Assembly (NCBI GenBank): GCA_022843855.1
Contig: JALHMV010000007.1
Span: 1-40,655 of the forward strand
Direction of reading: 5' to 3'
Source: Patescibacteria group bacterium
GTDB lineage: Bacteria; Patescibacteriota; UBA1384; 2-12-FULL-50-11
Length of the DNA stretch: 40,655 bases
Of this stretch, positions 2,303 to 7,054 are shown in pieces. Position 1 is the first letter of the stretch. Each line of letters begins with the position of its first letter. The notes under the pieces were generated by a model. The model did no database searches. It was not told where the DNA came from and saw only the letters and a list, made by a program, of their open reading frames with translations. Position numbers and translations under genes: made by a program.

Positions 2303-2599
2303 ATGAAGTGTATCGGACCCGAAAGTTGGTGTGTTTTCATTGAAGAAAGGACTCAGGGAAAGGTGGGCCAAGACTTAGTCGTCGTTTGCCTCAACCCATC
2401 TCGACACTTGCGTCAGTACGTGAACGACCTGGCCGTTGCCGTTACAGGCGGTAAAGAGGTCATTTGCTACTCACTGACCAGCCGAGAAGATCTCGATCGT
2501 GACCCTCTGTTAGCTGAGCTGCTTCCTCGAACGCAATTCATTCAGGGACCGCAGGGCAGTGTCGTCGATTTTCTTCTCCACAGCTTGCCCCGCGTCTAG
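2303..2599 (+). CDS. Hypothetical protein, 98 aa
   Basis: ORF directly downstream of uvrB on the same strand; no family recognised. Confidence 0.5.
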   Translation: MKCIGPESWCVFIEERTQGKVGQDLVVVCLNPSRHLRQYVNDLAVAVTGGKEVICYSLTSREDLDRDPLLAELLPRTQFIQGPQGSVVDFLLHSLPRV

Positions 2600-3588
2600 C
2601 GGGGCTTAATCTTTGCCAATTCAGCGTCTTTGTTGGTGCTAGAAAGAAAAACGCCAGTATCAACCAAGGCCTTTGTCCGTTGCCACATTCTTTCAATCTC
2701 AGCTTCCTCAATATCCGGTAAAGAAAGAAGTGCCTCAGAGATTGCCATACGATTATCATAGCCCCGAGCAACCCGGTCGCGTAATTCAGGCGGTAATGGA
2801 GTACTAACGAGCTTTTTCTCAATATCGTTCCACATCATGAACTGATACGGTCCAGGCAGCTCTCTCCGACTTCCGCCCTTGACGTTATAAAACGTACTAT
2901 TGAACGCAAGTCCGTTATCAATGGCAATCAACTCAGGCGCACCGTTGGTTAGTATCGGCCGCTTCTCGGCATCGACCTTAGCCATGTAGTTATTAACATG
3001 TCGGTCACCGTTGGCAATAATCCAGTCCAGAGCTGCCATATTACGTACATCGGTGGACTCCATAAAAGACTGGCTGTCCTCATCGTCGAGCTCTAAGAGC
3101 GCTTCACTGGCTAACTTATATCTTTCATAAGGCATAAATAATTGCAGCGAGCCGATGTGGCCATTGATCGTACGAAGCGTGGTGGGTGGGACTAGGTCAA
3201 AACCAAAGTGCTCAGAGATCAAGTAGCTCGCAACCTCACGAGGATAGTCGTGGCCTAGGCCATTGGCATTGTAAAAATCCTTAGCCTCGCCGCGAACTGG
3301 CTTGAAGACTGCCTCAACATGATGCCCTGCTTCGTCGTCAATGGTTACAAACTCGGCGATATTTCGAGTCCGACCCGCCTCAATATTAACGTAGGCCATC
3401 TCGACAACGTTACGGTGCGGCGGGACATTGTAGAAATCCTCAATTCGCCCCACAACTTCTGCCGTACCCGCTTCCATAACCGAAACAATCTCCTCTTTGT
3501 TCCCGAATCTCGTTTCTTTCTCGGCAGATTCAGCAGTCTCGACACTCTGGGATTCTTCGGGATTGAATGACGGTCCTCGTTCGCTCAT
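2596..3588 (-). CDS. PI3K/PI4K-like (or HipA-like) kinase-fold protein
   Basis: VFKPVRGE (Lys loop), DWIIANGDRHVNNYM catalytic-loop-like and AIDNGLAF metal-binding-like motifs in kinase order. Confidence 0.65.
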   Translation of the reverse strand: MSERGPSFNPEESQSVETAESAEKETRFGNKEEIVSVMEAGTAEVVGRIEDFYNVPPHRNVVEMAYVNIEAGRTRNIAEFVTIDDEAGHHVEAVFKPVRGEAKDFYNANGLGHDYPREVASYLISEHFGFDLVPPTTLRTINGHIGSLQLFMPYERYKLASEALLELDDEDSQSFMESTDVRNMAALDWIIANGDRHVNNYMAKVDAEKRPILTNGAPELIAIDNGLAFNSTFYNVKGGSRRELPGPYQFMMWNDIEKKLVSTPLPPELRDRVARGYDNRMAISEALLSLPDIEEAEIERMWQRTKALVDTGVFLSSTNKDAELAKIKPR

Positions 3589-6917: not shown

Positions 6918-7054
6918 TGGTGGAGGCGCCGGGAATTGAACCCGGTTCCAAGGCTGCAGATCCTCGCACAACACGGTCTTTGTTGTAGGCATTTTCCGTG
7001 TCGGGCACCACCCCGCGTACGAGCTATACAGCCCTGTCGAACCCGTTCGCCCCC
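6918..7054 (-). ncRNA. ssrA-like: tmRNA-like RNA, 137 nt, internally minimal (no tag ORF with stop)
   Basis: 5' GGGGGCGAACGGGTTCGACAGGG and 3' CCGGGTTCAATTCCCGG-CGCCTCC-A-CCA. Acceptor stem pairs 7/7 with a G3-U70 wobble. P2-like helix GGCUGUA/UGCAGCC plus CUCGUAC/GUGCGAG. Confidence 0.75.

Follow-up and report, generated by a model that had tools for sequence, protein, structure and literature searches.

A tag-less tmRNA-like gene conserved beside complete ssrA in Berkelbacteria-type bacteria, with structurally related candidates in viral contigs

The tag-less tmRNA is, as a kind, already known from organelles and from one named phage, and any further member has to be read against the way in which the complete molecule works, in which SmpB attaches to the tRNA-like domain and the two together work as a tRNA in the A site (PMC3985003, review). 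DS6A, the only phage named for a domain-only form in the literature searched (Mao et al., 2009, cited in PMC4131195 and PMC11915505), has an acceptor, a T-arm and a D-loop analogue and no tag message, and an RNA of this type is reported to inhibit endogenous tmRNA strongly, chargeable or not, perhaps by titration of SmpB. The mitochondrial tmRNAs of jakobids and oomycetes (RF02544) also have no tag frame, keep the tRNA-like domain and have SmpB as a partner, and the short plastid tmRNAs of Mallomonadaceae (~65 bp; PMC11915505) are without a coding sequence. The same paper finds, in a database of 97,179 tmRNAs, nine standard-form sequences without a coding region, and gives one sentence to bacterial groups possibly without a tag frame, Nasuia and 9FT-COMBO-53-11 sp001772805.

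The gene described here, a mini-tmRNA of 137 nt, lies in a window (the whole stretch of 40,655 nucleotides that was analysed) from a Patescibacteria genome. It resembles the phage and organellar forms in having no tag message, and has in common with the standard one-piece tmRNA (RF00023) the tRNA-like domain and P2, but it has no tag, and no pseudoknots were found in it. Unlike the DS6A type, a phage form with little beyond the tRNA-like domain and known here by description, it has a long P2 that leads to a conserved three-way junction bearing a 19-nt loop, is chromosomal, is flanked by uvrA and uvrC, and coexists with ssrA. Whereas the mitochondrial tmRNA is the sole tmRNA of its organelle and is usually permuted, the mini-tmRNA is one-piece, bacterial and additional to a complete ssrA; the plastid RNAs are without the distal domain, and no full copy is mentioned beside them in the available part of PMC11915505. 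If 9FT-COMBO-53-11 is the family of the window, the absence of the tag had been noticed before, but not, in that part of the paper, its conservation, its covariation or the link with phages.

What appears to be new is a conserved chromosomal bacterial paralogue with a distal domain of its own, structurally related to phage forms; no prior description of the paralogue, of the distal domain or of the phage resemblance was found in the literature searched, which lay mostly outside subscription journals. Its carriers, few in number, are tiny Berkelbacteria-type bacteria that have not been cultured and that retain a normal tmRNA. The stripped tmRNA is here a covarying, clearly selected gene, with related forms in viral contigs, and the role of a message-less tmRNA becomes testable in a bacterial setting. 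Phages and bacteria alike, the finding suggests, may use a small RNA to regulate ribosome rescue; the finding also supplies sequences that annotation has overlooked, ARAGORN skipping the copy in the window.

Anatomy of the 137-nt gene

In a scan of the window against all of Rfam, the best family at this locus was RF00023, with 72.7 bits (E 1.5e-26) against a gathering score of 47 bits, and its model aligns end to end on the gene, with a large central deletion and with the 5′ and 3′ parts in standard order. The original prediction of a tmRNA-like gene on the minus strand at these positions, with the sequence that it quoted, was thus borne out, and the other four copies found (see below) score 61.7–75.2 bits with the same family, all above the gathering threshold. 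ARAGORN, run on the window, reported neither a tmRNA nor a tRNA at this place. Other identities were rejected: (i) a permuted or mitochondrial tmRNA (RF04321, RF02544), because the gene is not circularly permuted and RF00023 scores best; (ii) a tRNA, because the D-stem and the anticodon arm are absent, ARAGORN gives no tRNA and Rfam scores a tmRNA; (iii) and finally, a chance match, because a covariance model built only from three relatives (model R1) finds the window copy with 109.7 bits (E 5e-23 genome-wide). The fold of the 137-mer alone is 2.95 standard deviations better than those of shuffled sequences, but the stronger evidence against chance is the comparative one, from the independent model.

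Table 1. Parts of the mini-tmRNA, by position in the window
Feature	Position	Strand	Basis
Mini-tmRNA gene, whole, 137 nt	6918..7054	-	RF00023 72.7 bits; model R1 109.7 bits
Acceptor stem 5′ strand GGGGGCG, with G3	7048..7054	-	G3-U70 in 5/5; two stem pairs covary
Acceptor stem 3′ strand CGCCUCC, with U70	6922..6928	-	Five-sequence alignment
A73 and encoded CCA	6918..6921	-	Sequence and RF00023 alignment
D-loop analogue GGGUUCGAC	7036..7044	-	GGGUUCGACAG identical in 5/5
P2a 5′ strand, pairs with 6949-6958	7027..7036	-	Fold and five-sequence alignment
P2a 3′ strand	6949..6958	-	Fold and five-sequence alignment
P2b 5′ strand, pairs with 6963-6970	7016..7023	-	Both-side changes in 8/8 pairs among five sequences
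P2b 3′ strand	6963..6970	-	Five-sequence alignment
Hairpin CGGG-GUGGUG-CCCG	7002..7015	-	Loop GUGGUR in 5/5
P3 5′ strand ACACGG, pairs with 6971-6976	6996..7001	-	Fold and five-sequence alignment
P3 3′ strand CCGUGU	6971..6976	-	Fold and five-sequence alignment
19-nt P3 loop AAAAUGCCUACAACAAAGA	6977..6995	-	Length 19 in 5/5; viral relatives with similar loops, AANGCCYACARCAAA and variants
T-arm CCGGG-UUCAAUU-CCCGG	6929..6945	-	RF00023 alignment and five-sequence alignment

The tRNA-like domain is complete in all five copies (7-bp acceptor with G3-U70, T-arm, D-loop analogue without a D-stem, CCA), and the acceptor, the 5-bp T-stem and the encoded CCA that had been predicted for the window copy are all there, together with A73. 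The D-loop analogue is the region of contact with SmpB in tmRNA. The P2-like helix of the original prediction is also present, but it had been drawn too short: it has 10 + 8 bp around a 3/4 internal loop and encloses 45 nt, not about 47. In the five sequences some 45–50 nt are left inside P2, and these form two hairpins in the fold and in the alignment. Both the CGGG-GUGGUG-CCCG hairpin and the ACACGG/CCGUGU helix were recovered, but no support was found for reading the hairpin as a PK1 pseudoknot. The distal end of P2 is a conserved three-way junction, with the GUGGUR hairpin on one side and, on the other, the helix that carries the A-rich 19-nt loop. This loop, on which no stress had been laid, is the inner element with the highest sequence conservation, close to RAAAAUGCCUAYAACAAA in four of the five copies, that of G002 deviating (AAAAACGGCUCAAGAAAGA). 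Inspection by eye allows GGUR and UGCC to meet in a loop-loop contact in four of the five mini-tmRNAs, not in G002 and not clearly in the viral forms, and as a pseudoknot this contact was rejected because it is not kept there.

A resume codon and a stop-terminated tag frame are absent from the mini-tmRNA: after the inner hairpin there is no stop codon in any of the three frames, as had been noted, the copy of G007 is likewise free of stops in every frame, and in that of G003 the letters are GCC-UAA.

Conservation, covariation and genome setting

In the family of the window, which has eight genomes, three others carry a copy of 136–138 nt together with a full ssrA, a patchy presence (4/8), and a fifth copy, found in a sister family, scores 88.3 bits with the covariance model from three relatives. 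The five copies, taken from draft genomes, represent two families of one class, and no other gene of ~137 nt in the 56 genomes of that class passes the tmRNA threshold. A sample of 389 genomes of the phylum gave no further mini-tmRNA outside the family, by model or by pattern, the two extra matches of model R1 being full-length ssrA. An exact-pattern scan of 85,488 species, in which presence was judged from one genome each, returned as relatives two Candidatus Berkelbacteria and Patescibacteria BroJett034.

When the helices were placed by hand on the five copies, 178 of 180 base-pair cells were standard and 23 of the 36 pairs had changed on both sides, counts that lean towards the structure since the alignment was fitted to it, which is addressed by a swap control and by the independent model search. 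Exchange of the 3′ strands between species lowered the paired cells of P2a, P2b and P3 from 98 of 100 to a mean of 63 (maximum 67). A separate count on three sequences gave 98.1% paired with 14 double-changed pairs, a level reached by none of 500 shuffles, and slid versions all stayed under 49%. The alignment of homologous loci has thus brought out the compensatory changes that the original prediction had proposed to look for, and its preference for a maintained, compact, tag-less RNA is upheld by the four additional genomes and the strong covariation. It had also reserved the name of pseudogene for a copy in random decay beside an intact ssrA; the intact ssrA is present, but the helices covary, and decay is refuted as far as sequence can do so, since it would not have left 178 of 180 pairs standing.

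In the tRNA-like domain the identity between one mini-tmRNA and another is 0.78–0.91, and that between a mini-tmRNA and the ssrA of the same genome 0.67–0.79, the copy of G007 being about as near to its own ssrA as to some other mini-tmRNAs. In almost every comparison a copy is nearer to the other mini-tmRNAs than to the ssrA of its own genome, and one old origin fits this better than repeated decay; the view of the gene as a decayed ssrA copy is rejected on this similarity and on the covariation. The RNA is very probably a selected tmRNA-like gene; probably it is functional, with a modulating effect on ribosome rescue, and not a broken gene.

The source genome is an 855-kb draft in 39 contigs, of which the window is one, and both of the genes that the original prediction had suggested might be found elsewhere are in it, a full-length ssrA of 429 nt, with the tag frame ANAFETAKARVANLFATPAFATAVA followed by a stop, and smpB. 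The mini-tmRNA is therefore a second, tag-less tmRNA-like gene and not a replacement. A full-length ssrA, its tag frame open to the stop, is found in all five carriers, ~250–290 nt longer than the mini-tmRNA of the same genome, and smpB was detected in four of the five (the source genome, G002, G003 and G008) and not found in G007, a fragmented draft.

The surroundings are those of an ordinary chromosome, with uvrB and uvrA before the gene and uvrC after it (names from translations), UvrA being conserved across the family. The place differs between genomes: between uvrA and uvrC in the source, at the cysS side in G003, and near a TrmB-type regulator in G002, G007 and G008. That regulator is unconvincing as a shared neighbour of the three copies, since G008 alone has three members of its family in 16 kb, and no shared neighbourhood or regulator that would explain when the mini-tmRNA acts was found among the carrier genomes. 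RqcH, sought by its NFACT-R_1 domain, was found in none of the 56 genomes of the class, although 10 of 14 control genomes yielded it by the same means; an RqcH-type RQC is therefore not there to finish a tag-less peptidyl-RNA, and coupling of the mini-tmRNA to RQC through RqcH was rejected.

Some minor features were seen in the same regions. In the window, positions 2596-3588 (minus strand), between uvrB and uvrA, encode a protein of 330 aa with a weak match to the PI3/PI4-kinase domain. In G008 a strong promoter-like site (TTGACA-17-TATAGT, extended -10; locus L042, 1381-1409) lies 91 bases upstream of the fifth mini-tmRNA, and no comparable site was found upstream of the copy in the window. 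In G003 (L022, ~1441-1458), 18 bases of the 3′ end of the mini-tmRNA (ATTCCCGGCGCCTCCACC) are repeated ~45 bases downstream, as would be seen if an element had integrated at the 3′ end of a tmRNA.

Viral relatives

IMG/VR was searched by patterns for short tmRNA-like genes, a later pattern including the loop motif. The wider patterns gave at least 96 distinct candidates with a paired acceptor and T-stem, and at least about 80 of these, of 62–91 nt, are essentially a tRNA-like domain with a short P2. Several candidates of 105–122 nt are neighbouring tRNA genes whose fit to the pattern is accidental, and the last, loose pattern added only false positives. Among the matches listed, many of the viral 80-mers have a common inner element, AARRCC-loop-GGNA (L099-L218 and others).

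The loop-motif pattern returned L349, L350 and L351 (140 nt), L352 and L353 (138 nt), L270 (116 nt) and L300 (112 nt). As single sequences, L350, L352 and L270 fold into P2, a hairpin and, after it, a helix closing an A-rich loop; L351 folds differently. The P3-type loops are ACAAUGCCUACAGCAAAUAC in L352 and AAAAAGCCCACAGCAAAUAC in L350, against AAAAUGCCUACAACAAAGA in the window. With the bacterial model the viral set scores 46–75 bits, to which the tRNA-like domain common to both contributes a part. The genes around L352 (DNA polymerase, DnaB-like helicase, Mu Gam-like protein, sigma factor) mark it as a phage, and tail or terminase genes lie on L270, L081 and L083. A common descent of the viral forms and the bacterial mini-tmRNAs, judged on these resemblances, is likely, not proven.

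BLAST against named phages and plasmids matched only 20–26% of the query, in the T-arm and the 3′ end, and two matches that were examined are permuted full tmRNAs. Those in Mycobacterium phage Wee and Halomonas phage H4907 cover the 3′ end only, the former ~110 bases from an integrase gene; an attP-type integration remnant was rejected as an account of the mini-tmRNA, which has both acceptor strands and P2. Permuted tmRNAs unannotated in their records were seen in Acinetobacter phage BUCT628 (L410, 39401-39705; RF04321 123.9 bits) and in Caulobacter phage CcrColossus (L413; RF04321 83.8 bits).

Possible roles

The best single reading, which we hold tentatively, is that the mini-tmRNA would be an alanylated, SmpB-binding decoy that dampens trans-translation. 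To judge by its anatomy, it would be transcribed, matured and charged with alanine, SmpB and EF-Tu would bind it as they bind tmRNA, and it would rival the full tmRNA, both for SmpB and at stalled ribosomes whose A site is empty. As it contains no message, such competition should make it a brake on trans-translation, as a domain-only RNA like that of DS6A is when expressed. The P3 loop, the length and most of the sequence of which are kept, would probably be a second site of contact, with the ribosome or with a protein. It counts in favour of the decoy that viral contigs with phage replication genes have the same architecture; it counts against it that a pure decoy would not need a conserved distal loop, the viral domain-only forms of 62–80 nt being without one, and that a bacterium would be keeping an inhibitor of its own rescue system.

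It is possible, if doubtful, that these RNAs form a distinct bacterial and phage class, common to Berkelbacteria-type bacteria and phages, for message-free, tag-less rescue or for a programmed block, in which the apical loop (AANGCCYACARCAAA and variants) would be the working part in place of the tag message, alongside the full tmRNA.

The main rival to the decoy, in itself rather unlikely, is a tag-less rescue in which the alanyl-mini-tmRNA with SmpB would accept the nascent chain and the SmpB tail would clear the truncated mRNA, the ribosome being freed untagged by drop-off or by a release-factor-like hydrolase. A similar role has been suggested for mitochondrial tmRNAs, which without a tag are conserved alongside SmpB (PMC11915505); on the ribosome the tRNA-like domain, together with SmpB, imitates an entire tRNA (PMC3985003, review), and this domain is preserved in all its features, among them charging elements not strictly required of a decoy. 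However, the complete ssrA in every carrier means that the cell does not depend on the mini-tmRNA, RqcH, a potential processor of such products, is absent from the class, and no release factor partner came to light in searches that covered SmpB and RqcH.

That the P3 loop could be a reduced resume site (AAAU-GCC...), to which the ribosome would switch to add a few residues, meeting a stop in some members and in the stop-free ones running to the 3′ end of the RNA and stalling again as in a trap, is unlikely. The loop is indeed like canonical resume regions, being A-rich with an A at -4 and a first codon GCC in four copies and GGC in one, and by eye G003 reads GCC-UAA directly and the viral L352/L353 have 13 codons from GCC followed by UAG. 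However, by eye the source genome, G002, G007 and G008 have no in-frame stop after the putative resume codon, the second codon (UAC, UAU, UAA or UCA) varies in a way that is not coding-like, and the loop is closed by a helix, in contrast to the open resume region of tmRNA.

An anti-rescue RNA of phage origin, captured by the bacteria and retained either as a relic or as an element that is selfish or connected with superinfection, is a quite improbable source: structurally related genes lie beside phage replication genes in viral contigs, presence in the family is patchy (4/8), and the genomic place differs between the source, G003 and the other carriers, but the tested bacterial neighbours are not recognisably phage, uvrA and uvrC standing in the window, and the strong covariation among the bacterial copies speaks of continued selection. 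Finally, that the gene is a decayed copy of ssrA or an artefact of assembly or binning, for which one could cite the complete ssrA elsewhere in the genome and the failure of standard gene finders to report the gene, can hardly be credited when five independent assemblies share the covarying helices and the conserved loop, the copies are mostly nearer to one another than to the resident ssrA, and the UvrA of the window is 84% identical to that of a same-genus genome.

Some irregularities of ssrA itself were also seen. G001, of the same genus and in one contig of 768,550 bases (L370-L409), has smpB, and neither ssrA nor a mini-tmRNA was found in it by the Rfam model, ARAGORN or model R1, so that either the assembly has a gap or this is a rare case of tmRNA lost and smpB retained. 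In G009 two full-length ssrA-type genes (G009:C152:301-652 and 3101-3492) stand 2.5 kb apart in opposite orientation, and G022 has two as well, on C10 and C5.
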